A DNA stretch of 64,000 bases from Streptomyces cathayae. Its GTDB lineage: Bacteria > Actinomycetota > Actinomycetes > Streptomycetales > Streptomycetaceae. The stretch's first letter is position 1, and each line of letters opens with the position of its first letter. Made by a program: the position numbers and the translations under genes. A model generated the notes under the pieces. That model was not told the origin of the DNA, made no database searches, and saw only the letters and a list, made by a program, of their open reading frames with translations. Location: NCBI RefSeq assembly GCF_029760955.1, contig NZ_CP121682.1, positions 62,001-126,000 on the forward strand, read 5' to 3'. Positions 5,641 to 64,000 of this stretch are shown here, piece after piece.

Positions 5641-5646
5641 GGCCGC

Positions 5647-6984: not shown

Positions 6985-7273
6985 ACTACCCGGCCTTGGG
7001 GAAACTTCACTCGCAGCGCGTCCGTGTCGACCGTGCCCTGCTGTGCCTCGGTCGGCGCCGGGCCGCCGACTTCCTTCTCATCGGGTGGGGCGAGGGCGTT
7101 GAGCCGGAAGCCGGCGGCGAGCAGGTCTTCCACAGGGATGAGCCAGCCGCGGTCGTCGTAGAGCACGGCCCGGGCAGTTTGCTGGCTTCCCGGCGGCGCC
7201 GGATCGTCGTACGGCTCACGCCGCACGCGGCGCCGGCTTCGCTCTGGGCCAGCAGGGGGCGAGAGGTGCTCAT
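6985..7273 (-). pseudogene. Small HTH DNA-binding protein, frameshifted
   Basis: The ATG at 7273 gives MSTSRPLLAQSEAGAACGVS then RTTIRRRREASKLPG, a helix-turn-helix of the kind found in actinomycete plasmid or integrative-element control proteins. Immediately afterwards the sensible reading continues in another frame as AVLYDDRGWLIPVEDLLAAG and PDEKEVGGPAPTEAQQG. One base has been lost near 7168. The 3' end runs into the IS4 element. I infer a relic of an integrated element regulator. Confidence 0.55.
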
Positions 7274-7490
7274 GCTCCGTATCGTCCCTGGCCGCCGTCT
7301 CTGTTTGAAATCTCCCTGAGTGCGTCGGCGTGGTGGGGCTGGGACGGCAGGGCGTCGTTGTCCGGATTCATGATGGGGTGCCCGAGCAAGTATGGGAAAG
7401 CGGGGTGTTCGGGGTGGGATGCTGCAGACAGAACCCCGGCCCGATTCCAGCGGGCCGGGGTCTTCATGTTGTGCCGGGGTGGCGGTTGGA
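7274..7490. other. Intergenic region
   Basis: Contains a probable terminator for the leftward gene at 7491: the stem ccccggcccg (7434-7443) pairs with cgggccgggg (7453-7462), so the hairpin spans 7434-7462. No gene seen. Confidence 0.4.
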
Positions 7491-8351
7491 TCAGCGTCCG
7501 CCGTATCCGTTGTTCCCGCCGTGTTCGTTGTTCCCGTCGTGTCCGCGGAAGTGGTGGATGACTCGGAAGCTGCCGACTACTCCGTTCTTGACGAAGACGC
7601 CGCCCTCGACGTGGCGGGGGTGCACGCCGTTGCTGGAGCTGTGCGGTCCGACGGTGGCGATGGGGGCGCCGTTGTCGCAGGTGGCTCCGCGGAAGACCTC
7701 GACGGTCCTCCGGCTGTCGTTGCGGATGTTCAGGCTGCGGGAGCCCAGGCCGCTCACGACGGTGATGCAGTCGCCCGGGGCGGCCGAGTAGGAACGCTCG
7801 TTGATGTGGATCCGGCCTCCGAAGCCCCGGTCTCCGTTGTCGCTGCCTTCGAAGTCCCGGTCTTCGTTGTCCTTGCCCTCGTAGTCCTTGCCGGAGTCGC
7901 CGCCCTCGTTGCCCTTGCCCTCGTTGTCCTTACCGGAGTCGCCGCCCTCGTTGCCCTTGCCCTCGTTGTCCTTACCGGAGTCGCCGCCCTCGTTGCCCTT
8001 GCCCTCGTTGTCCTTACCGGAGTCGCCGCCCTCGTTGCCCTTGCCCTCGTTGTCCTTACCGGAGTCGCCGCCCTCGTTGCCCTTGCCCTCGTTGTCCTTA
8101 CCGGAGTCGCCGCCCTCGTTGCCCTTGCCCTCGTTGTCCTTACCGGAGTCGCCGCCCTCGTTGCCCTTGCCCTCGTTGTCCTTACCGGAGTCGCCGCCCG
8201 TGGGGGCCGCGGCGGGGGCGGCCGCCTGCTGGACCGCGGGGGCGGCCTGGGCCGGCTCGTAGGCGGACGCCGAGGCGTAGGTGATACCGGTGGCGGCCAG
8301 GGCCGCGGCGGCCGCGACGGCCGCGGTAACGACGTTGGGACGGGTAATCAT
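7491..8351 (-). CDS. Secreted repeat protein, 286 aa
   Basis: Exported protein of unknown function. The ATG at 8351 with AGGAGA upstream gives a signal peptide MITRPNVVTAAVAAAAALAA followed by TGITYASASA, with probable cleavage after ASA. An Ala/Pro stretch leads into eight copies of a 14-residue repeat (GGDSGKDNEGKGNE; the last copy differs at two positions), which is acidic, Gly-rich and surely disordered. The C-terminal ~120 residues (GRIHINERSYSAAPGDCITV ... SFRVIHHF) form a folded beta-rich module with two Cys that could pair, then a Gly/Asn-rich tail. Two truncated relatives occur at 12.7 and 18 kb. A cell-surface role is an inference from the signal peptide and the repeats only. Confidence 0.7.
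   Translation of the reverse strand: MITRPNVVTAAVAAAAALAATGITYASASAYEPAQAAPAVQQAAAPAAAPTGGDSGKDNEGKGNEGGDSGKDNEGKGNEGGDSGKDNEGKGNEGGDSGKDNEGKGNEGGDSGKDNEGKGNEGGDSGKDNEGKGNEGGDSGKDNEGKGNEGGDSGKDYEGKDNEDRDFEGSDNGDRGFGGRIHINERSYSAAPGDCITVVSGLGSRSLNIRNDSRRTVEVFRGATCDNGAPIATVGPHSSSNGVHPRHVEGGVFVKNGVVGSFRVIHHFRGHDGNNEHGGNNGYGGR
7866..8201. repeat. 42-bp direct repeat, 8 tandem copies
   Basis: Seven near-perfect copies and one diverged copy of a 42-bp unit within the coding sequence of the secreted protein. Each adds 14 residues in frame, so copy number can change by slippage without breaking the frame. The array is continuous without spacers, so it is not a CRISPR array. Confidence 0.9.
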
Positions 8352-9289
8352 CACGCGCTTCTCCTGTCTCGGGAAATCGGCCGGCCAGCCGACTCGTGAT
8401 GAACGTACTGGCCGATTCCCATATCTGCCATATCGAGACATAGGGGAAAGTCGGCAGATTGACTCCAATCGGGTTACAGTGGGGTGCTTGTGTGCCGTGT
8501 CATGGCGTGCTGACGGGTAACCAGATGACTTTTCCTGTAGTGGGCTTGATGCCCCGATACTCCGTCCGGGGGAATTTGCCGGCGCCTGCTCACCCTCACC
8601 GCAGCGTGTCGTTCGTTGACACATCAGGTGAAACTGGTATTCCCGTGGTGCTGCCGGGCGGCGGGCGGGCCCGTGTGACGTGGTGCCGTTTGCAGGGTGA
8701 GGTTCCTGCAGAACGTCCCGGTGGAGGCGAAGACCTGACGCTGGCTCCAGGTCTTCGTCACCATGCTCCTGCGGCCGGCCGGCGGGCCCACCCGAGTGTC
8801 TTGGAGGCGTGCTCGCCACCCGCAACGGGCCCCGTTCATGGTGCGGTGGGGCTCGATGGGCGAACCGGAACCTGGTTCATCGGGCTGGAGGCGGGACTTT
8901 CCAGCATGATCCATCCCGTGTTCGAGTCCTGGGTCAACAGATCCCACGTGCCACCGCGCGAACAGGCCAGGAACATGATGCCCCTCGCCGCGAGCCGATC
9001 GCGGACCCAACGGGGCCGGCGTGTCCGGTACCCGGCCCCTTCGCGCTTCCCCGCTCACCCGTCCGCCCCCTTCGCCGGCATCCGCACCGGCCGGCGAGCG
9101 GACGGTGCGGACATGCCGCCTTCCACGTCGCCGACGGCAGGCGGCATGCTGCCATGAATCTGGGTGGACGGCGGCAGAAGCCGTCCCCGGCTTCCCCATC
9201 CAGGCCCGGAGCACCGGACCCGCCGCACCCACGCCCGAGCCGACCCCGAACGCCGACGCTCAGCTTGATGTCACCGTAGAAGCTCCGCT
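8352..9289. other. Long intergenic region, partly duplicated at 18.2-18.8 kb
   Basis: No gene is convincing. The part from about 8360 to 8925 can be aligned along its length with 18205-18785 (for example gttcctgcagaacgtc at 8702 and 18572), both upstream of a copy of the secreted repeat protein. This suggests that a promoter or leader region was duplicated together with the gene. The part near 9256-9289 may be the displaced 3' end of tpg (see that entry). Confidence 0.5.
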
Positions 9290-9820
9290 CACTGAGCTGT
9301 TTCCAATCTCATTTTGAGGTGTTGAGGTGGAGAGTGAAAACGGCCTGGACGAGGGTGGCGATGCGGTCGGTGGGCAGCAGTGTGCCGTCGAGGATCACGA
9401 ACGATTTGCGCGCCGCTGTCCGGGGGCAGTGGCAAGGTCCGGAGCGAGCGCCGCGAGGATCTCGACGACCTCCGCCACATAGCGGTGCACCGTGGCAACC
9501 CCGACGCCGAAACCTGCCGCGAACTGGGAGTATGTGTGTCCGCAGCGCAGATGGGCCAGCACGAGCAGGGCCTGCCGGCCTGACGGAAGCCGACGCCACC
9601 GCGTGCCGCGTTCACGACGTCGGGCGCTCAGCAGACCGGACAGGAACCGCAGGGTGGAACTGGACAGATCGAGTCCCGATGGGTAGACAAGCACACGAAG
9701 CTCCGGGCGGACAGGTTACTCTTGGTCGACAACCCATCTACCAGGAGCTTCGTCTCTTCCCCCTACCCGGCTCCCACGCCAACTCGGCCTGACACCAGCC
9801 AGGTTGGAAACAGCTCAGTG
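9290..9820 (-). mobile_element. IS5-family deletion derivative (~530 bp) with 17-bp inverted repeats
   Basis: Bounded by cactgagctgtttccaa at 9290-9306 and its exact inverse at 9804-9820. Inside are the two ends of an IS5-family transposase without its middle, so this is a non-autonomous, MITE-like derivative. It lies within the 3' end of the tpg remnant. Confidence 0.7.
9310..9694 (-). pseudogene. IS5-family transposase, internally deleted and frameshifted
   Basis: The GTG at 9694 gives MLVYPSGLDLSSSTLRFLSG and the HTH-containing N-terminal domain (RLPSGRQALLVLAHLRCGHT). A one-base loss in a C run near 9435 shifts the frame before ARKSFVILDGTLLPTDRIA, which contains the first catalytic Asp. 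This is fused directly to TLVQAVFTLHLNTSK-stop, the normal last residues. The second Asp and the Glu (about 130 residues) are missing. In relatives both sides of the join encode a similar CGCATC-CC stretch, which would fit deletion between short repeats. Confidence 0.7.
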
Positions 9821-9821
9821 A

Positions 9822-10330
9822 ACTCCACCTCCAGGCCGTGGGCGCGCCGACCGCCGTCACGGAAATAGATTTCGCCCAACCCTTCCGCTGCGATATCCCG
9901 CAGCTGCTGCTCGGTGGCGCCGGCGTCCTGGGCGGCGAGAGGGCGGGCCGCGTGCTGCGGGGGCAGGGCGAGGGTGAGATGGCGGATGTGGGCGTCGTCG
10001 GTGGTGCCGAGCGCGGCGGTGAAGCCGAACCGAGCACGGGTGTCGACGACCAGGTCGGTACTGGTGGCGGCCTGGCGGCGGGCTTGGGCACGGATACGGG
10101 GCTGCCGGCGGGCGCGCACTGCATCCTCCAGACGCTGCGCGAGGCCGGCGGATCTGGTCTTTGACGTACCCCTCCACAGTGCGCTGCGAGACGCCGAGCG
10201 CGCCGGCCACCGCGCGGGTGCCCTTGAGCTGCCTGACCGGGTGACTCATCTGCACTCCAGCCGACTTGGGGACGGGGCGGGTGAACGCTCCTTGGACGGC
10301 GCAGCGCAGGCCGTCTCCGACGATGCCCAT
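9822..10330 (-). pseudogene. tpg: Telomere terminal protein Tpg, frameshifted and IS-interrupted
   Basis: Tpg is the protein covalently bound to the 5' ends of linear Streptomyces replicons, where it primes end-patching. The ATG at 10330 gives MGIVGDGLRCAVQGAFTRPV, PKSAGVQMSHPVRQLKGTRA and LGVSQRTVEGYVKDQIRRP, the conserved HTH-bearing N-terminus. A small deletion near 10150 shifts the frame; homology resumes with LAQRLEDAVRARRQPRIRAQ, TDLVVDTRARFGFTAALGTT and YFRDGGRRAHGLEVEFTEL. An IS5 derivative then replaces the last ~10 residues. The usual partner gene tap was not found. Inactive here, so a working copy must be elsewhere if the replicon is linear. Confidence 0.75.
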
Positions 10331-10873
10331 GCGGGGCTCTCCGTTCATGACCGGCTGTGTGGGCCACTGAGCGGCGTTCCCGACCGGGCCGGGGTAGCTT
10401 GGCCCGCCACAGCCGGGAACGGGCCGTGCAGCGGCATGTGGCATGCAGCTTTGGCGGAGCCAGACCACACCCCTGCTTCAAACTACGGGCCGGATCAACT
10501 TCGTAACCAGACCACACGGGGACGTCAGCCGATTTGCCCGCAGAACAACAATTCCTTTCACCGGCCTGACAGCACCTCAAGTGGAAACTCTTCCAGGGCA
10601 AGCGCGCTAGACCAATGAAAGTTAATGGCGCATCACTGATGGAGAATGTATGACTCCCATCAACCGGTGAAACCACATGATGCGCCACGGGAAAAAATGG
10701 ATGTCGTCCATCAAGATGCGGTCTCCAGCACCTGCTAATAAGCTCGCTGAGTGGCCGGGTGTTGATGGCCCGAAGCCGGGCGCAGCAGCCGCCCCTACCC
10801 CGCCCAGCGGAAACGAAGACTTCCGCAGTCCAAACCTCTGCAGGGTTCACGTCTCCACGGGAGGAAGGTTGCG
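10331..10873. other. Intergenic region, no gene seen
   Basis: Promoter and leader space between the divergent tpg remnant and the fasciclin gene. I see no coding sequence or strong hairpin. The fasciclin ribosome-binding site gggaggaag lies at 10859-10867. Confidence 0.4.
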
Positions 10874-11452
10874 ATGAGGTTCACCTGCATGCGTACAGCA
10901 AAATCCACTGCGGCAGCTGTGGTCGCTATCCCACTCGCGCTTGGAGGTCTGGCGTCGCAGAGCCACGCACAGGATGCGTCTCCCAGCCCGTCGGGGACGT
11001 TCGGTCCCGGCTGTTCGGCGCTCTCCCAGAAGGCCGACACATCCAAGGACAAGCTCATAGAGGCTGCGGCCGCATACCCGCAACTCAGCCAGCTGGTCGC
11101 AGCCGCGGCCAGGGCAAACCTGATCGGCACCCTGGACGGGAAACCCAAGGTCACCATCTTCGCTCCCAACAACCAGGCTTTCCAGAAGGTGCCCGCGTCG
11201 CAGCTTGACTCGCTGCTCAGCAATCAGGGGCAGCTGAAGAAGGTGCTGACCTACCACGTGGTGGACAAGCAGATCACCCCGAACGAGCTCCCCAAGGGCT
11301 CCTTCACGACGGTAGAAGGCAGCAAACTGACCACGTCGGGCTCGGGCACCGACTTCAAGGTCAACGGCAAGGCGAACATCGTCTGCGGCAACATCAAGGC
11401 CGCGAACGCCACCATCTACGTCATTGACACAGTCCTCCAGCCACCGTCCTGA
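10874..11452 (+). CDS. Secreted fasciclin-domain protein
   Basis: Exported protein of 192 residues. The ATG at 10874 follows GGGAGGAAG by six bases. Residues 1-32 form a signal peptide (KSTAAAVVAIPLALGGLASQ, then SHAQD). From about residue 55 there is a single FAS1/fasciclin domain: LIEAAAAYPQLSQLVAAAAR, VTIFAPNNQAFQKVPASQLD, VLTYHVVDKQITPNEL and, at the end, IKAANATIYVIDTVLQPPS, which match the conserved H1 and H2 boxes. FAS1 domains mediate adhesion or bind surface polymers. The gene stands alone, with an IS integrase remnant downstream, and is intact. Confidence 0.88.
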   Translation: MRFTCMRTAKSTAAAVVAIPLALGGLASQSHAQDASPSPSGTFGPGCSALSQKADTSKDKLIEAAAAYPQLSQLVAAAARANLIGTLDGKPKVTIFAPNNQAFQKVPASQLDSLLSNQGQLKKVLTYHVVDKQITPNELPKGSFTTVEGSKLTTSGSGTDFKVNGKANIVCGNIKAANATIYVIDTVLQPPS

Positions 11453-11657
11453 CTCATGGCTCTCGTTCCGGGTGAGTCAGGCGAGGAGCCCTCGGGCTGT
11501 TTCGGTGGCGATGCCTGTCAGCGGCGGACCGTTAAGCGTGTCCTTGCCGAAAACCTCATCCGTGCAGGTGGGAGGAGGTGGACGGCCTTCGCGATCGACG
11601 CTCACTCCAGGACGCTTCTGGCGCTGAAGCCGATCAGCTTGGCAACGGGATCGTCCA
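11453..11657. other. Intergenic, possible short coding tail on minus strand
   Basis: Reading leftwards, 11560-11457 gives PTCTDEVFGKDTLNGPPLTG then IATETARGLLA and a stop, which looks protein-like but is too short to identify. Part of it repeats a sequence at about 3230-3260. Confidence 0.3.
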
Positions 11658-11744
11658 TGCTGCTGCGACTGGCCTACCTGGGCGTGAGCGATGCGCTCGC
11701 GCTGCTACGCCTACTGCCGGTCAGGGGCCGGGACAAGGACATTG

Positions 11745-12616
11745 AGGGTTTTCAGCAGTGCCGCTCCAGGGTGAGGACGGCCTTGGTGATTGACGTCATG
11801 CGATTTGGGCTGCATCGGGCTCTGCGGAAGATTCGCCAGGATTTCAGGCGGGCGATTCCTCGTTCGACGGGTACGCGGGCGGCGGACAAGGCCCGGTTGA
11901 CCGTCTGCTCGGTCGGGGTGAGTTCGCCCTGGGGCGGCCGGCGTTTGGGGGTGGTGACCCACTCGCCCGCGCCGATGTAGGCCATGTCGGCGAGGACGGG
12001 GACGCCCTGGCGCCCGCAGATTCTGATGATCTTGTGGGTGCGGGCGGCGGTCAGGTCGTGCGTCCGGCCGGGCAGGGCGGGTGAGAGCCACAGCGTGCGA
12101 CCGGCCGGATCCGCGATGACCTGCACGTTCACGCCGTGCCGCTTGTGCTTCGTCGAATAGTCCGCGCGTCCGTCGCCGACCCGGTCGCACTCGGCGAGCG
12201 TGCCGTCCAGGAGAACGTAGTCGGGGTCTGTCTCGCGTAGGACCTTCAGCAGGCCCGGCGCTTTGGCGGCCAGGTGCTCGACGACCGTGGTGACGTAGGC
12301 GTGGGCGGTGCCGACGGAAATACGGAAACCCGCGGCGAGTTGAGCCAGGGGGTCGTGCCGGCGCAGGTATGCCAGAGCGATCACCGCACGCTCGGACGGC
12401 CGGAGTTTGCAGCGTCGGTCACCCTCACGGGTGACGATCAGCATCGTCACCCACTCCACGAGTGCGTGCGGCAGGTCGAGTGCGGCAGGATACGGGATCA
12501 ACAGGGCTCCTGAGCTGGAGAGTTGAGACCTAGACATCTCTCTTAACGGCACGGGAGCCCTGTCCGTTGCCTACGGTCCCGCCGTCACCCGTCCGGGGGC
12601 CACCCTGAAAACCCTC
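11745..12616 (-). mobile_element. Intact IS5-family insertion sequence, 872 bp
   Basis: Ends are agggttttcag (11745-11755) and its inverse ctgaaaaccct (12606-12616). A 5-bp target duplication cattg occurs at 11740-11744 and 12617-12621. The single transposase gene has no lesion, so this is probably the most recent and possibly mobile IS in the window. Confidence 0.85.
11752..12537 (-). CDS. IS5-family transposase (intact)
   Basis: DDE transposase of 261 residues. The ATG at 12537 gives [20 protein letters not shown]. The N-terminal HTH region is [20 protein letters not shown] and [16 protein letters not shown]. Catalytic residues are in [13 protein letters not shown] (Asp), [14 protein letters not shown] (Asp) and [13 protein letters not shown] (Glu); the block [16 protein letters not shown] between them is typical of the DDE_Tnp_4 group. 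The stop lies seven bases inside the left inverted repeat. Neighbouring DNA is its target, an older integrase gene. Confidence 0.88.
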
Positions 12617-12660
12617 ATTGAAATCCTGGCCCTGCGGCATCAGGTCACGATGCCGGACGA

Positions 12661-12960
12661 AGATGCCGCCCTCGACGTGGCGGGGGTGCACGCCGTTGCT
12701 GGAGCTGTGCGGTCCGACGGTGGCGATGGGGGCGCCGTTGTCGCAGGTGGCTCCGCGGAAGACCTCGACGGTCCTCCGGCTGTCGTTGCGGATGTTCAGG
12801 CTGCGGGAGCCCAGGCCGCTCACGACGGTGATGCAGTCGCCCGGGGCGGCCGAGTAGGAACGCTCGTTGATGTGGATCCGGCCTCCGAAGCCCCGGTCTC
12901 CGAAGCCTCGGCCTTCGTTGCCCCTGCCGGAGTCGCCGCCCAGGGGGGCCGAGGCTCATC
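12661..12960 (-). pseudogene. Fragment of the secreted repeat protein gene (copy B)
   Basis: From 12665 to 12902 the sequence is identical, base for base, to 7599-7836 in the complete gene. It covers the beta-rich C-terminal module (GRIHINERSYSAAPGDCITV to HPRHVEGG). Neither a signal peptide nor a repeat array follows upstream: after GDRGFG the reading passes through RGNEG-like codons and ends in other DNA. The complete identity points to recent copying or gene conversion. Confidence 0.8.
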
Positions 12961-13163
12961 CCACCAGCCTCCGTCCGGCGTGTCGACGCGCAGCGGCAGG
13001 CCCGCCGTGACCGCACTCGCCCGGAGGTCCGTGATGAAGTCCTCTACGGCCAGGCCGTGGTGGCGGCGCAGGTCGACCCGGCCGGGGCCGGCGCCCGGAC
13101 AGTCGACGGCCCCTTCCGGGCGGCAGCCGCGAAGCTCCTGGGGGGTTGCGGGTCTCCGCCGTT
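12961..13163 (-). pseudogene. Unidentified coding fragment
   Basis: Reading leftwards the frame gives VDLRRHHGLAVEDFITDLRA and SAVTAGLPLRVDTPDGGWW, which has normal protein texture, but no start, no stop of its own and no family I recognise. It lies between the MerR-like gene and the copy B fragment and probably lost its 3' end when that copy arrived. Confidence 0.35.
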
Positions 13164-13502
13164 TCAGGCCGCGGTCGTCGGGTTGGCCGATTCGGCGGTG
13201 CGGCGGTATTCGGCGTTGAGGCGCTGGGCTTCTTCGAGCTGGTCCTCGAGGATGACGATGCGGCAGGCGGCCTCGATGGAGGTGCCGTGGTCGACGAGTT
13301 CCCGGGCGCGGGCGGCGATGCGCAGCTGGTAGCGGGAGTAGCGGCGGTGGCCGCCCTCGGAGCGCAGCGGGGTGATCAGGCGGGCGTCGCCGAGGGCGCG
13401 GAGGAAGCCCGGGGTGGTGCCGAGCATCTCGGCGGCCCGGCCCATGGTGTAGGCGGGGTAGTCGTCGTCATCGAGACGGCCGAAGGAGTCGTCTGCGGTC
13501 AC
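13164..13502 (-). CDS. MerR-type HTH regulator, small
   Basis: DNA-binding protein of 112 residues. The GTG at 13502 is preceded by AGAGAGG and starts VTADDSFGRLDDDDYPAYTM. The winged-helix MerR region is YTMGRAAEMLGTTPGFLRAL, then ARLITPLRSEGGHRRYSRYQ, in which the HRRYS/T wing is diagnostic. A coiled helix ends the protein (LEEAQRLNAEYRRTAESA), so it should dimerise. There is no effector domain, so what it senses is unknown. A perfect 14-bp inverted repeat lies in its leader at 13529-13559. The gene appears intact amid pseudogenes. Confidence 0.75.
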   Translation of the reverse strand: MTADDSFGRLDDDDYPAYTMGRAAEMLGTTPGFLRALGDARLITPLRSEGGHRRYSRYQLRIAARARELVDHGTSIEAACRIVILEDQLEEAQRLNAEYRRTAESANPTTAA

Positions 13503-13528
13503 TTGCACCTCTCTGTGGAACGCGTGGA

Positions 13529-13559
13529 GGGGCCCTGGTGCCATTGGCACCAGGGCCCC
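13529..13559. promoter_or_regulatory. Perfect 14-bp inverted repeat upstream of MerR-type gene
   Basis: ggggccctggtgcc (13529-13542) and ggcaccagggcccc (13546-13559) separated by att. It lies 27 bp upstream of the GTG of the regulator. It could be an operator for the regulator itself, a leader hairpin or a terminator of an upstream transcript; no T-run follows on either strand. Confidence 0.55.
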
Positions 13560-14188
13560 GAAGGAACTGCTACACCATCTGCCGGCCCTGATCCTGCGCC
13601 GGCCTCCTGTTTCCGCAGACCCGACCGAGAAGCTGACGGGAGTGCGGGGATCGCGGTTGCTTGACCGGAGACCACCTCACTATCGATGTCCTGCGGTACC
13701 CGGGCTCAAGACTTCGACCCGGGCGATCCTGATGGCGCCTGGCTCCTCCGTTCTTCCCTCTGGGATCAATCACTTACCTACTGCTGGTCCTGCTGGTCCT
13801 GCGAACTGCTGGTGGCCTGTGACAGCGCCACTCTTCGGCAGCCAGCCCCGTCGCCGGTCCTGCGTCTGCTCTGGCTTGGAACCCCACTGCCGAACCTCCC
13901 GGTGCGCGCGTCCGCAGCCGACGCCTTCACCGAGGTACTGCTCACTGACTTCACTGCGGGGTCCTGCGCACTGCACTTACGGGTACTGCGCACGGCGGCC
14001 CCTGATCACTGCGGGCCACCCGGTCCGGTCGTCAGTCCCGTCGCCGTCCTGCAACCGCTCTGGCTTCGAAACTCCACCACCGCACCGTCCTGCATCCTGC
14101 AACTGCGGGTACTGCTGCCCGGCAGTTCGTCTCTGCCGGGCCCTGTTGATCTCGACTACAAGAGAAACCATAACCACACCACCACCCA
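13560..14188. other. Intergenic region with degenerate direct repeats
   Basis: No gene I can support. A segment at 13848-13885 (ccgtcgccggtcctgcgtct...) recurs in degenerate form at 14038-14075 (cccgtcgccgtcctgcaacc...), and the nearby motif cgggtactg occurs at about 13980 and 14107. These look like diverged copies of a roughly 190-bp unit of unknown role. Confidence 0.4.
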
Positions 14189-14386
14189 ATGTCTACTCCG
14201 ACCGCCATAGATTTCCGCGCGTTCACCGGTGAGGTAATCGACCTCGAACAGCGACGGGGCAGGCGCACGCCCGTCACCGCCCGGTTGACGGGCCAGGCCG
14301 GGGCACCAGCACCACGTAGACAGGACCCACGAGCCGGCAGGGGAGCAAAACCGCCCCCGGGGGCAACGAGCGTCACGAAACGGTGA
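14189..14386 (+). CDS. Small basic hypothetical protein, 65 aa
   Basis: The ATG at 14189 gives MSTPTAIDFRAFTGEVIDLE followed by QRRGRRTPVTARLTGQAG. The first 35 residues have good coding texture and codon bias; the remainder is Pro/Arg-rich. It has no clear Shine-Dalgarno site. I do not recognise a family. It may be a genuine small gene or the 5' end of a lost one. Confidence 0.4.
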   Translation: MSTPTAIDFRAFTGEVIDLEQRRGRRTPVTARLTGQAGAPAPRRQDPRAGRGAKPPPGATSVTKR

Positions 14387-14463
14387 CTGCTCCCCCATAC
14401 CGGCACAGCCGTCTCATCGAACCGCTGACCTCAGCACACCTGTTACCGCCCAGGGGGACGACG

Positions 14464-14899
14464 TGAGCAGCCCATACACCGCACCACAGCCACCGCGCCC
14501 CGGTGAACGCGTAAACGCTATGTGCTTCCCGCTCTTGGCCTGGCCTTCCTGATCGGCCTGGGAGCAGGGTCCGGCTCCGACTCCCAAGCCGATGACGCCA
14601 GACCGGCCTCCGCCACGCCGCAGCCGACGGCCACCGTCACCGCCACGATGACCGCCACCGCGGAGGCTGACCCTGCGCCCACGGCCACCGAAACCGTCAC
14701 CGCTCAGCCCCCTCGGGTAGCGGCGGTGGTGGCAGCGACGACAACAGCGCGGAAAGCGGCAGCGGCGCCGGGAGCGTCTACTACGCCAACTGTGCGGCAG
14801 CCCGTGCCGCGGGAGCCGCACCCGTCCACCGCGGCGAGCCCGGCTACGGCCGTCGTCTCGACCGCGACGGCACCGACTGCTGTGACCCAGCGCGGTAGA
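14464..14899 (+). pseudogene. Excalibur-domain membrane protein, two frameshifts
   Basis: The GTG at 14464 (VSSPYTAPQPPRPGER) starts the gene. Near 14515 the frame shifts to YVLPALGLAFLIGLGAGSGS, one membrane segment, followed by a Thr/Ala linker. Near 14705 it shifts again to GSVYYANCAAARAAGAAPVH then RGEPGYGRRLDRDGTDC, a clear calcium-binding Excalibur motif (DxDxDGxxCE type), here ending CCDPAR. Two indels and the altered last Cys-Glu mean it is not functional. Confidence 0.65.
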
Positions 14900-15308
14900 T
14901 GGCGGATCATGCCCTCTTCGGCGCAGGTCACGGGCGTGCAGAGCAAACCGGTTGGCGGACCTTGAGGGTGATAGTCGGCGGATCACGGCACGGCCAGCGC
15001 CCGGCCAGCCAGTGCCGCTGGTCAGCACACCAACTGAAGGCACGGGCCGTCCGCGAGGTCGACCACGGAGAGCCGGACAAGCCCCGCACCGGGCACACAT
15101 GAACCCGGACGCGCTAGTTGGAACCAGTAGGGCTCGGTGAGCTGATGGGTTCTGACCTGTGGGACATGCATGTTGGCACCAAGTGGTCATGCCTCTTGCA
15201 ACCAACCGCGAGTGGGCTCACTCCGGTACTGGTTCGGGAGGCGGGCCTGGGATAGAGACAGAAGGCCGAGGCTCAGATTTTCCTGAAACGCTCTGAGAGA
15301 CTCCTTAA
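14900..15308. other. Intergenic region, no gene seen
   Basis: GC-rich DNA between the Excalibur remnant and an IS5 element. The minus strand at 15305-15187 reads LRAFQENLSLGLLSLSQARL to a stop, which may be the tail of a lost gene cut by the IS, but I cannot assign it. Confidence 0.35.
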
Positions 15309-16160
15309 GACCGTGTCCTATGTGGTGAGTCGGATGAGTCGCTTGTAGCAGCACAGGGCGGCGGCGAGGCCGAGGAAGGCCAGGTAGTTGCGGGGATGGC
15401 GTTCGTAGCGGTGGTTGAGTCGGCGGTATCCGGTCAGCCAGGACATGGTCCGTTCGATGACCCATCGGCGGCGCCCCAGCCGTTCGCTGGACTCGATGCC
15501 CTTGCGGGCGATGCGCACGCCGATGTGCTTGCCCCACAGCCATCGCCGCAGGTGGGGGACATCGTATGCCTTGTCGGCATGCAGGCGTTGGGGCTTGACG
15601 TACCGGCCGCGGTGGGGGTCGTGTCTCGTTTGGTGACCCTCGACCATCGGCTTCAGCGCGAGGCTGTCGTGGGTGTTCGCTGCGGAGAGGCAGCCCGTTC
15701 GCGCCCGACAGGACGTGCATCTTGGAATCTGGCTTGCCCCGGTCCACGGGGCTCGGGCCGGTGAGTTCGCCCCTTTTTTGGCCCTCACGTGGGCGGAGTC
15801 GAGCACGGCCCGGGACAGGTCGAGCAGGCCGGCGTCGTCCAGGCGGTGCAGGATCTCTTCGTGCAGCCGGCCCCACACACCGGCCCGCGACCAGATCTGG
15901 AACCGGCGGTGGGCGGTCGACTTCGAGATGCCGAAGCACGGGGGCAGCGCCCGCCAGGCACAGCCAGACACCAGCACGTAGATGATCGCGGCGAACAGCG
16001 TCTCATCAGGCGTGTCCGGTGTCCCGCCGCCCTGCGGACGTACCTTCGACGGCGGGATCAGCGGCTTCGCGATCTCCCACAGTCCGTCCGGAACAATCCA
16101 ACTCCACGTATCCCGCCCCATGATGAGCCCAACGACCGACTCACCACGTAGGACACGGCC
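15309..16160 (-). mobile_element. IS5-family insertion sequence, 852 bp, ttaa flanks
   Basis: Imperfect ~25-bp terminal inverted repeats (gaccgtgtcctatgtggtga at 15309 and the inverse of the sequence ending at 16160 with two mismatches). The 4-bp sequence ttaa flanks both sides (15305-15308 and 16161-16164) and may be the target duplication. Its transposase is damaged. Confidence 0.75.
15318..16121 (-). pseudogene. IS5-family transposase with a frameshifted middle segment
   Basis: An open frame of 267 codons starts MGRDTWSWIVPDGLWEIAKP and ends CCYKRLIRLTT. Catalytic surroundings AVLDSAHVRAKK, AANTHDSLALKPM and WVIERTMSWLTGYRR are present. Between the first two, the frame reads non-homologous ANSPARAPWTGAS, while the conserved GELTGPSPVDRGKPDSKMHV is found in the -1 frame. 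The shift occurs at AAAAAAGGGG (15770-15779 on the minus strand), a classical slippery run. A deletion of about 14 bp near 15690 then returns the frame. No single reading gives a complete enzyme, so I treat it as inactive. Confidence 0.7.
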
Positions 16161-16418
16161 TTAAGGACGGGCACTGACAAAAGCCGGAAAATGGAACAAT
16201 TCTGCGAATTCGATGGGAGTGCCCAGGCGTCGGGCGGCCCCGCCCGTGCGGGATCAGGCGGCGACGCGGTGCTGGGCGAGCTTGTCCAGCGTGAGCGGCC
16301 ACTCCCTCAAGGCTCCGCCCTGTTTTACGCCGACCGCTCGTCGAACGCTGCGCCAAATGGCCTCTCCTGCGGCTCACTTCGGTTGCCCGATGGGGCAGTG
16401 CAACCTTGTGAGCTGGTT

Positions 16419-17558
16419 GTGAGTCTTCTGATCGATCACTTTCGTGATCGGACCCACGAGGAGACCATCATCAGCGCCATACGCAAGACCCTCACCGCTA
16501 CCGCCGTCGTCGGTGCCGTACTCGCGGGCTCCGCTGCCTGCGGAACGGCGGAGCAGCTTTCCGCCGGCCAGAAGCTCGACCATGCCTTCGAGCAGCTCGG
16601 CAAGAAGAAGACGCTCTCTTTCCAGCTCGACCTGGACACCGACGTCACGTCTCTGAAGGCGCTGGACGCCAAGTCCGACCCCGCCCCCGGCGAGGAGATC
16701 CCGGATGAGGCCGCCGAGTTGATGAGCGACGCGACGATCACGGTTACCGTGCAGTCGAAGAAGCCGCTCGACGAGTCCGGCGAGAAGGACCTCGTCGGCA
16801 TGGCCATGAAGATCAGCAATCCGGAGGGCGATCTCGCTGAGTACCGGATGATCGACGACTACATCTACGTCCGTGCCGACGTCGACACCATCGGCAAGAT
16901 GATGGGCAGCCCGCTACCGGCCGCTGAAGACCTGCCTCCGCAGGCTCAGTCCTTCAAGAGCGTCCTCGAGGGCAAGTGGGTGAAGTTCAGCGCCAAGAAG
17001 ATGGAGGAGGTCGTCGCCGAGGGCCAGGAGGACCAGGGCGGTCCCGCGCCCGCCCCGTCCCTCGACGCCAAGACGCAGAAGAAGCTCGTGGGAGCCCTCC
17101 GGACGGTCGTCGCCCGTGAGGTGAGCTTCAAGACGGCCGACAGCGAGAACGGCACCGAACACATCACCGCCACGGCTCCCTTCCGCACGCTGATCACCGA
17201 ACTGCTCGACGAGATCCGCCCGCTGACGAAGGACCTGCCGCCGGGCATGGAGCTGCCGACGGACAAGGACCTCAAGGACGCGCCCGACACCAAGGTGACG
17301 GCGGACTTCACACTGAAGAACGACGAGTTGACTGAGGTGAATGTGGACCTTGCCGCGTTGGCCGAGGACGCCAAGGTCAAGAAGTTCGGCCTGATTGTGC
17401 GGATGAGCGACGGCACCAAGCCCACCGCTCCGGCCGGTGCCACCGAGCTGGACCTGCAGGAACTCATGGAGGGCTTCTTCGCCGGCCCGGCGATGGACGA
17501 CTCCGAGTGGGACGAAAGCGACTACGCCGACCCGGACTTCCCGGAGGACGAGTTCTGA
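16419..17558 (+). CDS. Secreted lipoprotein, LppX/LprG-like length
   Basis: Exported lipoprotein of about 360 residues. The lipobox is LAGSAAC with the lipidated Cys a few residues before GTAEQLSAGQKLDHAF; the signal helix is TLTATAVVGAVLAG. The mature part has repeated beta-strand/charged patterns (SFQLDLDTDVTSLKALDAKS, YIYVRADVDTIGKMM) and a very acidic C-terminus (DDSEWDESDYADPDF). The start is uncertain. A good Shine-Dalgarno GAGGAG at 16458-16463 is followed by ATC ATC where an ATG would be expected (16466), and the nearest in-frame GTG is at 16419. It resembles actinomycete lipoproteins that carry lipids between membranes, but that is inference. Confidence 0.7.
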   Translation: MSLLIDHFRDRTHEETIISAIRKTLTATAVVGAVLAGSAACGTAEQLSAGQKLDHAFEQLGKKKTLSFQLDLDTDVTSLKALDAKSDPAPGEEIPDEAAELMSDATITVTVQSKKPLDESGEKDLVGMAMKISNPEGDLAEYRMIDDYIYVRADVDTIGKMMGSPLPAAEDLPPQAQSFKSVLEGKWVKFSAKKMEEVVAEGQEDQGGPAPAPSLDAKTQKKLVGALRTVVAREVSFKTADSENGTEHITATAPFRTLITELLDEIRPLTKDLPPGMELPTDKDLKDAPDTKVTADFTLKNDELTEVNVDLAALAEDAKVKKFGLIVRMSDGTKPTAPAGATELDLQELMEGFFAGPAMDDSEWDESDYADPDFPEDEF

Positions 17559-17661
17559 TCGCACCGAGCGCTGACGGGGCCGGACGCCGCAATCGCATGG
17601 TGAGTGACCGCACAGGTGCTTTCTGCCCGCCCGTGGCTCCCGGGTTCCGTACCCGGGCGGC

Positions 17662-17850
17662 ATGCGTGTGCGCCCCACTGTGAGCAGGCTCCCTGCCGAG
17701 GACTTGTCACCTGGCACCACGGATCTGGAGCCGGTCGCCGAGGGGCTGAGCACCAGCGGGGTGCTGGTGCTCAGCGGGGCGGGCATCTCTACGGGGTCGG
17801 ACATCCCCGACTATCGGGGCGAGGGCGGGAGCCTGAACCGGTACTGTGGG
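17662..17850 (+). pseudogene. Sir2-type deacetylase, N-terminal fragment
   Basis: Starts MRVRPTVSRLPAEDLSPGTT and continues LEPVAEGLSTSGVLVLSGAG then ISTGSDIPDYRGEGGSLNRY. GAGIS and the IPD-YRG motif are the NAD-binding start of sirtuins. After about 60 residues the homology ends and, from 17913, the sequence belongs to another copy of the secreted repeat protein gene. The rest of the enzyme is lost. Confidence 0.7.
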
Positions 17851-17873
17851 TGCCGAATAATCATTCGGCCTGG

Positions 17874-18200
17874 TCAAGCAGTATGTCGGTACTCGCGGAG
17901 GGCTCCGCCGAGCAGGCTGCGGGAGCCCAGGCCGCTCACGACGGTGATGCAGTCGCCCGGGGCGGCCGAGTAGGAACGCTCGTTGATGTGGATCCGGCCT
18001 CCGAAGCCCCGGCCCTCGTCAGCTCGGCCTTCGTTGCCCCGGCCCTCGTTGCCCTGGCCGGAGTCGCCGCCCATGGGGGCTGAGGCAGGGGCGGCCTGGG
18101 TCGGCCCGTAGGCGGACGCCGAGGCATAGGTGATACCGGTGACGACCAGGCCGGCGGCAATCGCAACGGCCACGGTGACGATGGTGGGACGGGTATTCAT
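17874..18200 (-). CDS. Truncated relative of the secreted repeat protein (copy C)
   Basis: The ATG at 18200 gives the signal peptide MNTRPTIVTVAVAIAAGLVV, TGITYASASA, close to that of the 7.5-8.35 kb gene. The repeat array is reduced to GNEGRGNEGRADEGR. The folded module starts identically (GRIHINERSYSAAPGDCITV); 17913-18012 equals 7731-7830 base for base. After GLGSRS the reading leaves the family and ends LGGALREYRHTA. Only a third of the module remains, so the product is probably not functional, though it could be exported. Confidence 0.55.
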   Translation of the reverse strand: MNTRPTIVTVAVAIAAGLVVTGITYASASAYGPTQAAPASAPMGGDSGQGNEGRGNEGRADEGRGFGGRIHINERSYSAAPGDCITVVSGLGSRSLLGGALREYRHTA

Positions 18201-19395
18201 CACGCGCTTCCCCTGTCTCGGGGATCGGCCGGCCGGCCGACTCGTGATGAACGTACGGACCGGTTCTCATATCTGCCATATCGGGAGGTAAGGGGGAGTC
18301 AGTGGATTGACTCAGATCAGGTCACAGGGAGCGCTTGGATGCCGCGTCATGATGTGTTGACGGGTGATCAGGCAACTTTTTCCGCAGTGGACTTGACGCC
18401 TCGATACGCCGCTTGGGGGACTTTGCCGGTGCCTGCTCACCTCTGGCCGCAGCGTGTCGTTCATTGGCACATCGGGTCAAACCGGCACCCCCGTTGTGCT
18501 GGGTGGCGGGTGGGGCGCTCGAGTACGCGGGCGGACCCTTGATGTGACGTGTTGCCGCCCGGAGGGTGACGTTCCTGCAGAACGTCTCGATGAAGGCGAA
18601 GACCTGACGTTGGCCTCAGGCGGGCATCACTGTGCACCTGAGGCCGGCCGGCGGGTCCGTGCGAGCGTCCTGGAGACGTGTCCGCCGCCCGTAGCGGGCT
18701 CTGTTCATGGTGATGTGGGCGGCTCGTCCGGCGGACCGGAACCTGGGTCATCGGGCCGGAGGCCAGGTGTCATCGACCTCGCCTCCTGGGCGAGGTGGCC
18801 CGGCCGACACGGCGAATGCGACCCCGGCCGACGACGACCAGGCTGTACGGCTGCGCGAGGCCCACGAACACCACCTGCAAAGCACGGTCGCCTTTCGTCG
18901 GGATTCACGAGGCCAGTGATCACCGGCTGCCTCCGGAACCTACCGGCCATCGCTGTGCCTGGAGACGAACGAAGCCACCCGGCCACGCCGCCACCCGAGG
19001 CCAGCCCCCGAGCACCGCACCGAAATGCACCACCCGCTCCGCCGTCCAAGATCAGGTCACCGGCATCGCCGGACGGTCCACCACGGCCTGGCCCCCGGTC
19101 CGAAGCACAAGCCCACCACACCCCGGCGCGCCACCACCCCCACCGCGGGCCGCCCGGCCGGCAAGCAGCGGGCGCGTAGGGTCGCGCGCCGACTCGTCAC
19201 TGGGGCCGTGCAACTGCCGCCGCTCTGCGGCCGCCGGCGGCCGCAGAGCCGCCGTACACCTCACCGACGACTCTCGCGTGTTGCTCGTAGCACTTGAGGA
19301 TGACCCGGCACCCATAAGGAGACTGATTTCGCGGCTCATGCGGAACCTCCTCATGCCGTCGCCGTCTTGATCACCAAGGCGACCGGAGGAGAGTT
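18201..19395. other. Long intergenic region before the isoprenoid operon
   Basis: The part to 18785 mirrors 8360-8925. The rest is very GC-rich without a defensible gene. A 26-bp perfect palindrome lies at 19223-19248 (ctctgcggccgccggcggcc...), a strong hairpin. The next gene starts at 19399 with GGAGGAGAG in front, so its promoter should lie between the palindrome and 19385. Confidence 0.45.
19223..19248. terminator. 26-bp perfect palindrome (hairpin)
   Basis: ctctgcggccgcc followed directly by its inverse. It would form a very stable stem in RNA from either strand. No T-run follows, as is common for streptomycete terminators. Function inferred from structure only. Confidence 0.4.
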
Positions 19396-19398
19396 TTG

Positions 19399-20532
19399 AT
19401 GGCCAGTCAGGTAAGTGGGACGCAGCAGGTGAAGGCTTCCGCGCCGGAGTACCAAGGGGCGCTCGGGTCGCTGTCGGTGAACGCCTCCCTGCCCGAGGTG
19501 CTCGCCCGGGGCGTCGAGGAGCTGCGGGCGGCGGAGCAGGCCGGCGACCGGCGGGAGATGGCCCGCTGCGGGCTGGCCGTGGCGGAGGCGTACCGGAGAC
19601 TGGGGCGGATCGAGGAGGCCGACCGGGCGTGGAAGGCGAGCTACCGGGCAGCGCGTTCGGCCGGCCACGAGGGCGCCATGGCGTGGGCCCTGTGGAGCGG
19701 GGGCACGCTGGCCCGGCAGCGGGGGGCGTTCGCTCTGGCGTACCGGTTGCTGCGGCTGGCGGCCGAGACGGGCAAGCGGGGCGGTGACGTCGTCGTACGG
19801 GGCTATTCGCTGGCGGGGCTCGCCGAAACGGGGCGCATACAGGGGGACTACGAGGCTGTGGGGAGGCTGCACGAGCAGTTGCTGGCCGAGGCCCGCCGTC
19901 GCGGTGAGGCACGGCACACGGTGTGGGCGCTGGAGGGCATCGCGCAGATGCATCGCAACACCGGTTCCTATGACAAGGCGCTGGCGCTGTTCGAGGAGGC
20001 GGCCGAGACGGCGTTGCGTGCGGAAGACCGGCGCGGGTGGGCATGGGCGCTGCGGGGCATCGCTGATGTGGTGTCCGTGTGCGACGGAGAAGTGGAGCGT
20101 GCCCTGTCGCTGCTGTCGCAGGCGGAGGAGGCCTGCCGGGAGATGCAGTTGTCGAGCGCCCTCGCCTACAACCACAAGATGCGGGGCAACGTGCTGTACC
20201 GGGCTGGTCGTTACGCCGAGGCCCGGGAGCTGTACGCGCGGGCGCTGGAGGAGTTCCGTGAGATCGAGGAGCCGCGGGGGACGGCACTGTCGCGACTGGG
20301 GCTGGTCAAGGCACGCGCCCGGCTGGGCCGGGACACTGCGCGCAGTGCCGCCGAGCTGGCGGAGCTGCGCTCGGTGCTCGACCGCATCGGGCTGCGGCAC
20401 GCCCGGGAGATGGTGGAGAAGGCGGCGGCTGAACTGGGCCTGGGGCCGCTGCCGGACGAAGGCCGGAGGCCGGTGCTGCCGGCGGGCGGGGCGGAGGCGT
20501 TGCAGGCGGCCGACGTGGAGGGGCTGCGATGA
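19399..20532 (+). CDS. Tetratricopeptide-repeat protein
   Basis: Cytoplasmic helical-repeat protein of 377 residues. The ATG at 19399 follows GGAGGAGAG by six bases. From residue 35 onward it is made of TPR-like helix pairs (AYRRLGRIEEADRAWKASYR, GSYDKALALFEEAAETALRA, AGRYAEARELYARALEEFRE), about seven in all. There is no catalytic or DNA-binding motif. The stop overlaps the start of the polyprenyl diphosphate synthase (ATGA at 20529-20532), so the two are made together; a scaffold or partner role for isoprenoid synthesis is the natural inference. No signal peptide. Confidence 0.8.
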   Translation: MASQVSGTQQVKASAPEYQGALGSLSVNASLPEVLARGVEELRAAEQAGDRREMARCGLAVAEAYRRLGRIEEADRAWKASYRAARSAGHEGAMAWALWSGGTLARQRGAFALAYRLLRLAAETGKRGGDVVVRGYSLAGLAETGRIQGDYEAVGRLHEQLLAEARRRGEARHTVWALEGIAQMHRNTGSYDKALALFEEAAETALRAEDRRGWAWALRGIADVVSVCDGEVERALSLLSQAEEACREMQLSSALAYNHKMRGNVLYRAGRYAEARELYARALEEFREIEEPRGTALSRLGLVKARARLGRDTARSAAELAELRSVLDRIGLRHAREMVEKAAAELGLGPLPDEGRRPVLPAGGAEALQAADVEGLR

Positions 20533-62051: not shown

Positions 62052-62181
62052 CAGCGGGATGCCAGCGGGATGCCAGCGGGAGACATGCCGAACGGTGAGC
62101 GGAGGCCGCTGGAATGGTCCCGTACCCACACGGCGGAGGCAGCCGGCCACGGCGGTCCGCCCTGACCCATCAGGAGTCACC
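62052..62181. promoter_or_regulatory. Leader of the RiPP precursor gene
   Basis: Includes a short direct repeat (gcgggatgcca / gcgggatgcca at 62054-62075) and the ribosome-binding site AGGAG at 62172-62176. Confidence 0.45.
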
Positions 62182-62352
62182 ATGAACAAGGACCTGAGCA
62201 CCCTCGCGGACGAGATCCTCGAGCTCGAGGCCGAGACCTTCGAGATCTCCGACTACTCGGACGCCAGCGAGGTCGTGCTGGCCGGCTGCACCAGCACCAG
62301 CTCCACCTCGACCTCCAGCTCCACCTGCAGCACCACCTCCTGCTCCGCCTGA
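62182..62352 (+). CDS. RiPP precursor peptide with Cys/Ser/Thr-only core
   Basis: 56-residue peptide. The ATG at 62182 is five bases after AGGAG. Residues 1-35 are an acidic leader: MNKDLSTLADEILELEAETF then EISDYSDASEVVLAG. Residues 36-56 form the likely core: Cys36, Cys49 and Cys54 plus 17 Ser or Thr and a final Ala, nothing else. This layout (LxLExETFEISDY leader, Ala-Gly before a Cys/Ser/Thr core) is that of precursors annotated as thiazolylpeptide-type bacteriocins, which undergo Ser/Thr dehydration and Cys cyclisation or thioether formation. No modifying enzyme is in the window; the next gene is an AfsR-type regulator. The product type is inferred. Confidence 0.8.
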   Translation: MNKDLSTLADEILELEAETFEISDYSDASEVVLAGCTSTSSTSTSSSTCSTTSCSA

Positions 62353-62373
62353 CACACGTCCGGTGCGGCAGAC

Positions 62374-62418
62374 GCCCGGCCGGTGTCCCTCCCCTCAAGG
62401 GGCGGGCTCCGGCCGGGC
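62374..62418 (+). terminator. Terminator after the RiPP precursor
   Basis: gcccggccgg (62374-62383) pairs with ccggccgggc (62409-62418), with an inner stem ccccTcaAgggg, followed by tttcgt. It starts 21 bp after the stop codon. Placed between precursor and later genes, such a partial terminator would raise precursor levels over enzymes. Confidence 0.75.
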
Positions 62419-62430
62419 TTTCGTCGTGCC

Positions 62431-62470
62431 CGTCCTGGCCGCACGGCCGGACACCTGTGCGGCCAGGACG
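62431..62470. promoter_or_regulatory. Second inverted repeat downstream of the RiPP precursor
   Basis: cgtcctggccgcac (62431-62444) and its inverse gtgcggccaggacg (62457-62470), 12-nt loop. It may be a second terminator or an operator before the regulator gene. Confidence 0.6.
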
Positions 62471-62882
62471 GCGACGGTCGCCGCGAAACCTCATGGTAGG
62501 TAAACCCCTACAACCGCGTGCTCGCTTTGTCGGAAGCGTCCGTTCCGAGCCGACACCGACAGCACCGTTTACCAGCAACAAGGCTGTCTTTAGAGGCATT
62601 TGACGATCCCCCAGCGGCAGTAATCCACCTGGGGATCTCTTCAGAACTTCCTCTTGACCGTCGGTCTACGCCAGTAGACACTCACCACTGCCACAAGGCC
62701 GATGGACGCCCTGCTCACCGACTTCACATGTGCTCGTGCCCGCTCTCGTCAGAGTGCGGGCAGAGGTTCTGTACCAGTCTCCCTCCCGACCAGGGGCGGA
62801 CCCGGTGACAGGACACCGCTTCTCGAAGCGGGCCATGGCAGGCCGGTGCGGCAGATCTTCGAAGGTCAACGGGGGAATACTC
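62471..62882. other. Leader of the AfsR-type regulator
   Basis: About 410 bp relatively rich in A+T for this genome (for example ctgtctttagaggcatttga at 62582). No gene defended. It should hold the promoter of the regulator; the ribosome-binding site is GGGGGA at 62868-62876. Confidence 0.45.
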
Positions 62883-64000
62883 GTGCGTTTTCAGCTGCTC
62901 GGCCCACTCAGCATCACCGACGGTTGCGATGTGGCCGTCCTTCCGCCGGCCAAACCGACGTCACTGCTGGCGGCGCTGCTGGTCCGCCCCGGCGAGGTGG
63001 TCCCGACGCAGCGTCTCCGGCAGGCCGTCTGGGGCGACGAGCAGCCGGCGACGGCGAAGGCGGCCCTGCAGAGTTGCGTCCTGCGGTTGCGCCGCCTCTT
63101 CGCGAAGTACGACATAGAGGAACAGGCGGTGGTCGCGGTCGCCGGGGGCTACCGTCTCCCGGCCGACGGCGACACCCTGGACCTGCTGCACTTCCGTGGC
63201 CTGGTGGCCGAAGCGGCCGGAGCGGGAGAGTCCGAACTCCCCTTGCTGCGCACGGCACTCGACCTGTGGCAAGGGCCGCTTCTCGCCAACGTCCCCTCCG
63301 AACTGCTGCACCGCGACGAGGTGCCCCGGCTGGTCGAGGAGCGCCTGCGCGTCCTGGAACGCGTCTGCGAGATCCAGTTGGCCCGGGGACAGTCCCGCGA
63401 GGTCCTGGTGGACCTCTGGGAGGCCACGCGCACCCACCCCCAGCACGAAGGTCTCGCCGCCCAGTTGATGCGGGCGCTGTACCGGGCGGGGCGGCAGATC
63501 GAGGCGCTGGCCGAGTACCGGAGGATCAGGACGCACCTCCGGGAGGAGCTCGGCGTCGACCCCGGCGCGGAACTGCAGGGCCTGGAACTGGCCATCCTGC
63601 GGGGCGACGAACCCCGGGGCCCGGCCCTGGAGGCCGCACCGCTCACCCTCACCCCGCACGCGGCGCCCGCGGTGGCCGACGCCGCGCCCGGCGCTCCTGC
63701 GGCCCGGGGGGAGAACACCCCCTCCGGCGGGCCCGTCCTCCCCGGCGACGGCCGTCCGCCCTCCGGGCCGGCGCATCCGCCGGGGCCCAGGCTGCCCCAT
63801 GTCCCCGGCTTCACCGGCCGCACCCGTGAGACCGCCGACCTGGTGAGCCACCTGAGCGGCGAGGACCGAAGGGACGGGCGGACGGACGCCGACCCGGTGA
63901 TCGCGGTGATCTCCGGAGGCCCGGGGATGGGCAAGACCGCGCTGGCCCTGCACACCGCGCAGTTGGTGGCGGACCGGTACCCCGCGGGGGGCGTACTGCT
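62883..64000 (+). CDS. AfsR/SARP-type regulator with NTPase domain (3' part beyond window)
   Basis: Starts with GTG at 62883 (VRFQLLGPLSITDGCDVAVL). Residues 1-92 are the OmpR-like DNA-binding domain of SARPs (LRQAVWGDEQPATAKAALQS, YRLPADGDTLDLLHFRGLVA). Residues 95-240 are the bacterial transcriptional activation domain (LAQLMRALYRAGRQIEALAE, LREELGVDPGAELQGLELAI). After a Pro/Ala linker an NB-ARC-type ATPase begins: FTGRTRETADLVSHLSGED and Walker A SGGPGMGKTALALHTA near residue 345. The frame is cut at the window edge. Position beside the precursor suggests it activates the RiPP cluster. Confidence 0.9.
   Translation, partial: MRFQLLGPLSITDGCDVAVLPPAKPTSLLAALLVRPGEVVPTQRLRQAVWGDEQPATAKAALQSCVLRLRRLFAKYDIEEQAVVAVAGGYRLPADGDTLDLLHFRGLVAEAAGAGESELPLLRTALDLWQGPLLANVPSELLHRDEVPRLVEERLRVLERVCEIQLARGQSREVLVDLWEATRTHPQHEGLAAQLMRALYRAGRQIEALAEYRRIRTHLREELGVDPGAELQGLELAILRGDEPRGPALEAAPLTLTPHAAPAVADAAPGAPAARGENTPSGGPVLPGDGRPPSGPAHPPGPRLPHVPGFTGRTRETADLVSHLSGEDRRDGRTDADPVIAVISGGPGMGKTALALHTAQLVADRYPAGGVL

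Follow-up and report, generated by a model that had tools for sequence, protein, structure and literature searches.

What does a bacterium make from a peptide whose core consists almost entirely of Cys, Ser and Thr? This question is raised by a small gene in Streptomyces cathayae (GCF_029760955.1, contig NZ_CP121682.1), which lies near the right end of a stretch of 64,000 nucleotides, here called the window (G000:C1:62001-126000 in the 7.6-Mb, two-contig genome). An earlier note, made from the letters alone, had described a 56-residue peptide ending in 21 residues of Cys (3), Ser/Thr (17) and Ala (1), and had regarded it as the start of a cluster for a ribosomally synthesized and post-translationally modified peptide (RiPP). 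We read about 17 kb to the right of the window. The genes found there, taken with the all-Cys/Ser/Thr core, point with good confidence to a goadsporin-like cluster for a linear azole-containing peptide (LAP).

Both the coordinates and the composition given for the peptide were confirmed. The core, CTSTSSTSTSSSTCSTTSCSA, contains 3 Cys, 10 Ser, 7 Thr and 1 Ala, and this Ala, at the last position, is its only other residue. The leader is acidic, as had been described, with 10 Asp/Glu against 1 Lys/Arg, and its C-terminal residues are Ala-Gly. The window has 815 stop-to-stop frames that are 40 amino acids or longer, and we compared their last 21 residues. The precursor frame has 20 Cys/Ser/Thr residues there and the runner-up has 12. 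Twenty copies of the window were also generated with a first-order Markov model, and the best frame in each has only 9-11. A chance run of these residues was ruled out by the frame statistics together with the homologues. The precursor scored 41.7 bits with TIGR03892, the NCBI thiazolylpeptide precursor model (cut-off 25), and 32.2 bits with NF033400 (cut-off 30). Databases already name the family automatically through these models, and the name given, 'thiazolylpeptide-type bacteriocin', probably states the wrong product class.

The unusual core is real, but it is no isolated oddity; it belongs to a cluster that is common in the genus. By protein search we found 51 homologous precursors. The organism was named for 21 of them: 19 were from Streptomyces, one was from Micromonospora and one from Nonomuraea. 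The precursor was found in 66 of the 392 sampled genomes of the genus and, by alignment search, in 75 of 297 genomes of the family, representing 5 of 17 genera (both counts take in the S. cathayae genome and a small number of weak matches). A phylum-wide search gave matches in 8 of 396 genomes, five of them in the same genus; the other three, at just 20-21 bits, were left uncounted. A scan of the genome contigs with the precursor confirmed at least one locus.

Cluster enzymes and product class

The precursor stands at the front of a RiPP cluster, as the earlier note proposed. RiPP-modifying genes are present within 15 kb to its right, and the cluster carries a LanB-type dehydratase, cyclodehydratases and a flavoprotein dehydrogenase. 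All of its open frames lie on the plus strand. The two fused YcaO cyclodehydratases, CD1 and CD2, scored 301.9 and 324.6 bits with TIGR03604 (cut-off 219.25), and the SagB-type dehydrogenase scored 121.3 bits (cut-off 78.4). Matches to TIGR03882 and TIGR03605 also exceeded their cut-offs. The cluster therefore combines a YcaO cyclodehydratase bearing a leader-binding domain with a SagB-type dehydrogenase, which is the combination that marks a LAP cluster. The LanB dehydratase is split, PF04738 falling on one gene and PF14028 on its neighbour. LanB-N matched PDB 6ec7 at 2e-36, which we take to be TbtB, and LanB-C scored 87.7 bits with TIGR03891 (cut-off 48.45). The same identity of 6ec7 is given in PMC10676384.

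The nearest characterised kind in the literature consulted is that of goadsporin and the spongiicolazolicins. Goadsporin comes from the god cluster of Streptomyces sp. TP-A0584, which likewise has a cyclodehydratase, a flavin dehydrogenase and a split LanB glutamylation/elimination pair, and its product is linear with azoles and dehydroalanines, as predicted here (PMC5303826). No [4+2] enzyme is described for it (PMC4603692). In contrast to goadsporin, the present cluster has two fused cyclodehydratases with an F-like protein, a SARP regulator, a PqqD-M50 protease and an M20 hydrolase. The cluster proteins scanned include neither an acetyltransferase (GodH) nor a peptidase-bearing ABC protein (GodB), and the core is restricted to Cys, Ser and Thr ahead of the final Ala. 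Spongiicolazolicins A and B of Streptomyces sp. CWH03 are called goadsporin-related (PMC8838263, PMC11583998, PMC10676384). Compared by description only, they too are linear and combine azoles with a few dehydro residues, but have 29 and 28 residues. The coryneazolisins, whose precursors are highly alike and which have no known product in PMC4603692, share with our cluster, again by description, a core of nearly all Cys/Ser/Thr, two D proteins, LanB-like dehydratases and the lack of a cycloaddition enzyme; they differ in that only one of their D proteins is fused, the other being discrete, and in having Ile within the core and a Corynebacterium host (PMC4603692). Nostatin A and the dehydrazoles carry dehydroalanine (Dha) or dehydrobutyrine directly before azoles, as predicted here, but from proteusin-type leaders (PMC11583998, PMC10676384). 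The dehydrazoles also use a DUF4135 (LanM-like) dehydratase, and no such protein was among the Pfam matches of the scanned cluster proteins.

If LanB-C, or an enzyme encoded elsewhere, joined two dehydroalanines by [4+2] cycloaddition, the product would be a thiopeptide with a pyridine macrocycle. The precursor is of the thiopeptide type by TIGR03892 and NF033400, and the TbtB-like glutamylation protein and F-like leader-binding protein recall those of thiomuracin (Tbt) and similar thiopeptides. Thiopeptide clusters typically have F proteins and a split LanB (PMC4603692). Unlike the thiomuracin cluster, however, this one has no separate pyridine synthase beside the elimination protein, as judged by PF14028 counts, NF045556 and motifs. 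It encodes a single PF14028 protein (the other two of the genome are at 1.32 Mb), and LanB-N requires an eliminase. With the TbtD/PbtD model NF045556, LanB-C reached only 95.8 bits against a cut-off of 325. Provided that LanB-C is the eliminase, the cluster contains no [4+2] cycloaddition enzyme.

LanB-C carries the elimination-type motifs YGG..AE and HM..NR, which were both absent from the two pyridine-synthase types compared, the pyridine synthase of genome G838 and a pyridine-synthase-like protein of G173. An elimination-type relative in G173 has both motifs complete, and one in G088 has HM..NR and AE without YGG. The dehydratase MadB likewise shows YGG..AE. The LanB-C family profile gave 55 and 66 bits on the putative eliminases of G838 and G173, which are so labelled from their nearness to pyridine-synthase-type genes, and 34 and 22 bits on the pyridine-synthase types of the same genomes; the 333-amino-acid G838 frame lacks its C-terminus and is uninformative on HM..NR. 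Two points weigh against an elimination role. The complete motif pair occurs in only one of the compared elimination-type proteins, and the predicted fold of LanB-C is closer to the pyridine synthases, with TbtD/PbtD nearest, which keeps the thiopeptide reading alive. The LanB proteins L042 and L043 have neither motif in exact form. We infer the elimination role of LanB-C from its motifs and from the need for an eliminase, the fold being ambiguous. A thiopeptide is accordingly unlikely, and we prefer the LAP.

The earlier note had also offered three thioether rings as an option. The product would then be a lanthipeptide of class I that carries at most three such rings, for which the LanB parts of the cluster and the three Cys amid many Ser/Thr could be taken to speak. 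No LanC gene lies in the cluster, and the only PF05147 match of the genome (G000:C1:1319714-1320844) lies next to a different LanB pair, at a distance of 1.2 Mb. The two cyclodehydratases and the dehydrogenase also argue for azoles instead.

Ser sites and Thr/Cys sites of the core

Core residues were compared site by site. Of the 122 peptide rows we kept 112, which represent 78 distinct DNA versions, and of the 51 proteins we kept 43. The row filter admitted only Cys, Ser or Thr at most sites, so that the exclusion of other residues cannot be read from the result, but it has no bias between Ser and Thr/Cys. In the 78 DNA versions, Ser is invariant at core sites 3, 5, 6, 8, 11, 12, 15 and 18, and Thr at sites 2, 7, 9, 13, 16 and 17. 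Serine is encoded by both TCN and AGY, and a switch between them, if made one base at a time, passes via Thr or Cys. For the eight Ser sites, parsimony on the DNA tree gave 18 such switches without a change of amino acid, and for the six Thr sites it gave no change to Ser, though Ser is one base away; these counts are rough, as the tree was built from the same 111 bases as the counted sites. Judged by this pattern, Ser and Thr are not interchangeable in the core peptide. A site-specific modification would impose such a rule, and a plain Ser/Thr-rich linker would not. For the core type of S. cathayae, the core and the last 16 leader codons occur in 6 distinct DNA versions, in which every difference is at a third codon position and no amino acid is changed.

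By this comparison, the core columns divide into Ser-only and Thr/Cys-type sites. With the database proteins included, Cys/Thr exchange was found repeatedly at sites 2, 4 and 14 and once each at sites 7, 13, 16 and 17. Among the 23 unique cores, from which P0046 was dropped because its longer core is out of register, Cys/Ser exchange occurred at sites 1 and 10, and all three residues occurred at sites 4 and 20. Ala or Gly replaces Ser at site 12 in some database cores. The Cys residues are at positions 1, 14 and 19 in the core type studied here and at 4, 10 and 19 in the commonest other type. Such shifts, and the swaps with Thr, argue against thioether rings, because Thr cannot be a thioether nucleophile. 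We thus consider a lanthipeptide highly improbable.

In goadsporin, both dehydroalanines derive from Ser directly N-terminal to azoles; azoles are required first at those sites, and GodF is inactive on the unmodified precursor (PMC5303826). In the commonest core, seven Ser (sites 1, 3, 6, 8, 12, 15 and 18) are directly N-terminal to Thr/Cys-type sites, and the S. cathayae core has six such pairs since its site 1 is Cys. Taken with the goadsporin rule, this arrangement predicts repeated Dha-azole pairs. A product with many dehydro-amino acids together with azoles, another option of the earlier note, is supported as a possibility. The roles of the residues could also be distributed differently in an azole/dehydro LAP, with Thr giving dehydrobutyrine, Ser giving oxazoles at many sites and Cys alone giving thiazoles. 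In known systems, Ser and Thr are substrates of either enzyme type (PMC10676384), and Ser is found at sites 1 and 10, which are Cys positions in relatives. The Cys/Thr exchange sites, on the other hand, suggest a shared modification, and Cys cannot give dehydrobutyrine; the goadsporin dehydroalanines also come from Ser before azoles (PMC5303826). This distribution of roles therefore seems improbable, and the assignment of Ser to dehydroalanine and of Thr and Cys to azoles is preferred for the LAP.

Gene neighbourhood and relatives

The features of the locus are collected in Table 1. Window coordinates are obtained by adding 61499 to those of the extended locus L009, and the biosynthetic genes run to 81164 in window numbering.

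Table 1. Positions of the precursor, its flanking elements and the cluster genes.
Feature	Window	L009	Strand	Remark
Ribosome-binding site AGGAG	62172..62176		+	ends 5 bases upstream of ATG 62182
Precursor gene	ATG 62182, stop 62350-62352		+	56 aa
Leader peptide, ...FEISDYSDASEVVLAG	62182..62286		+	35 aa, acidic; conserved in homologues
Core peptide CTSTSSTSTSSSTCSTTSCSA and stop	62287..62352		+	cleavage site putative
Hairpin then UUU	62374..62418		+	folding; candidate terminator or attenuator separating the precursor from the operon downstream
SARP-family regulator	GTG 62883 to 64796	1384-3297	+	profile match; Trans_reg_C + BTAD, weak NB-ARC
F-like protein		~3335-5722	+	TOMM leader-binding domain (TIGR03882), weak C-terminal YcaO
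Fused cyclodehydratase CD1		~5712-7664	+	TIGR03604
SagB-type dehydrogenase		7725-9383	+	two matched segments
LanB-N (glutamylation-type)		9403-12309	+	PF04738
LanB-C		12297-13430	+	PF14028
PqqD-like + M50 protease		13427-14554	+
ABC ATPase		14615-15586	+
ABC permease		15583-16338	+
Fused cyclodehydratase CD2		16335-18293	+	TIGR03604
M20 hydrolase		18355-19665	+

The earlier note had placed a terminator and a SARP regulator at once after the precursor. The hairpin is strong, an 88-nt stretch with it folding at -55.5 kcal/mol (z -4.18 against 200 shuffles), but a simple scan flagged no terminator there, the likely reason being its short T run. The SARP gene does follow, though 'at once' was loose, as about 530 bases separate it from the precursor. 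Upstream of the precursor lie an asparaginase gene (Pfam) and a second gene that we take, judging its sequence by eye, to encode a LacI-like regulator. The frames scanned after the M20 gene encode a molybdopterin oxidoreductase, a SpoIIE phosphatase and a protein without a Pfam match, and look unrelated to the cluster.

Among the cluster proteins, the M50 protease has HELAH and PLDG motifs and a weak PqqD-like N-terminal match, and it resembles the daptide membrane protease model below its cut-off. The ABC pair is of the DrrAB type, and the M20 hydrolase has HACGHD and EE motifs. In the F-like protein, the leader-binding part is fused to a degenerate-looking YcaO half. An alignment of 18 cyclodehydratase rows (two CD2 rows, L052 and L053, being incomplete) has 72 invariant positions; 23 of these are retained in all 9 F-like rows, and 9 of the 10 polar ones listed from 280 on are not. 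This pattern hints that the YcaO half is not an active third enzyme.

The same gene set was found by tblastn with the cluster's own proteins in 17 of 21 fetched loci (L050-L066), some of which lack an edge gene where the fetched stretch ended. L049 has an incomplete but matching set; L067 and L068 show edge genes only, as the choice of region excluded their clusters, and L069 (G088) has a more distant LanB pair in a different cluster. The precursor gene is relocated between locus types. It precedes the SARP gene in L050-L054, as in the window, and lies on the opposite strand between the CD2 and M20 genes in 13 loci (L049, L055-L066). That the M20 gene adjoins the precursor in those loci suggests that it belongs to the pathway.

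Divergent relatives with other Cys/Ser/Thr cores include three neighbouring precursors in L122 (G838:C4:2206850-2207600) and two in L067 (G036), a hint that several components may make up their products. Streptomyces sp. NBC_00316 has a plasmid (L176, NZ_CP108024.1) that carries a related LanB/YcaO cluster, its LanB-C being 42% identical. At about 8164-8430 of L176 there is a precursor-like frame, missing from the plasmid's incomplete gene table, whose final 26 residues are only Cys, Ser and Thr; pure cores of this kind therefore recur. The S. cathayae genome itself has another YcaO gene (G000:C1:617696-618757) and a separate class I lanthipeptide-type LanB/LanC locus (G000:C1:1318860-1321812).

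Proposed pathway and significance

A pathway can be proposed from these genes. What was observed is the gene content, the open frames, the synteny and the pattern of core residues; from these we predict the reactions, the sites modified, the linear form of the product, its export and its function. The leader would be bound by the TIGR03882 domains of the F-like protein and of the two fused cyclodehydratases. The cyclodehydratases would convert Cys and Thr, plus some Ser, to azolines, which the SagB-type enzyme would oxidise to azoles. LanB-N would transfer glutamate from Glu-tRNA onto Ser, and the separate LanB-C would eliminate it to leave dehydroalanine immediately before the azoles. Azole formation uses the carbonyl of the preceding residue; with an azole at Cys1, Gly(-1) at the least would therefore remain in the product. 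The PqqD-M50 membrane protease may cut off the leader, a role suggested by its likeness to the daptide membrane protease. In daptides, the RRE-dependent (RiPP recognition element) intramembrane peptidase MpaP is said to cleave the leader (PMC10036551). The DrrAB-type pair would act as exporter, the M20 hydrolase may trim the product and the SARP protein would turn the operon on.

The literature searched, in which few subscription journals were covered, gave no description of a product or function for this precursor family. The cluster is real and common, and a variant of known chemistry. Our best guess is that the product is an exported antibiotic or signal. More tentatively, and against the odds as we see them, it may be a nearly fully modified ladder with up to seven Dha-azole pairs per 21-residue chain (six in the S. 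cathayae core) and few ordinary residues, kept site by site in many Streptomyces.

As a frequent RiPP cluster of the genus, this system has a further use. Because its sites sort into Ser-only and Thr/Cys types, the core offers an exceptionally clear way to examine how a cyclodehydratase and a dehydratase divide Ser and Thr between them, and the two natural core variants bear directly on the rule that azoles form first and dehydroalanine arises before them. If the proposed ladder is correct, the moving Cys/Thr register would be a natural read-out of the azole-forming sites, and the site-by-site conservation of the ladder would be easier to reconcile with an extracellular signal that is conserved, or with a drug acting on a conserved target, than with an arms-race toxin.
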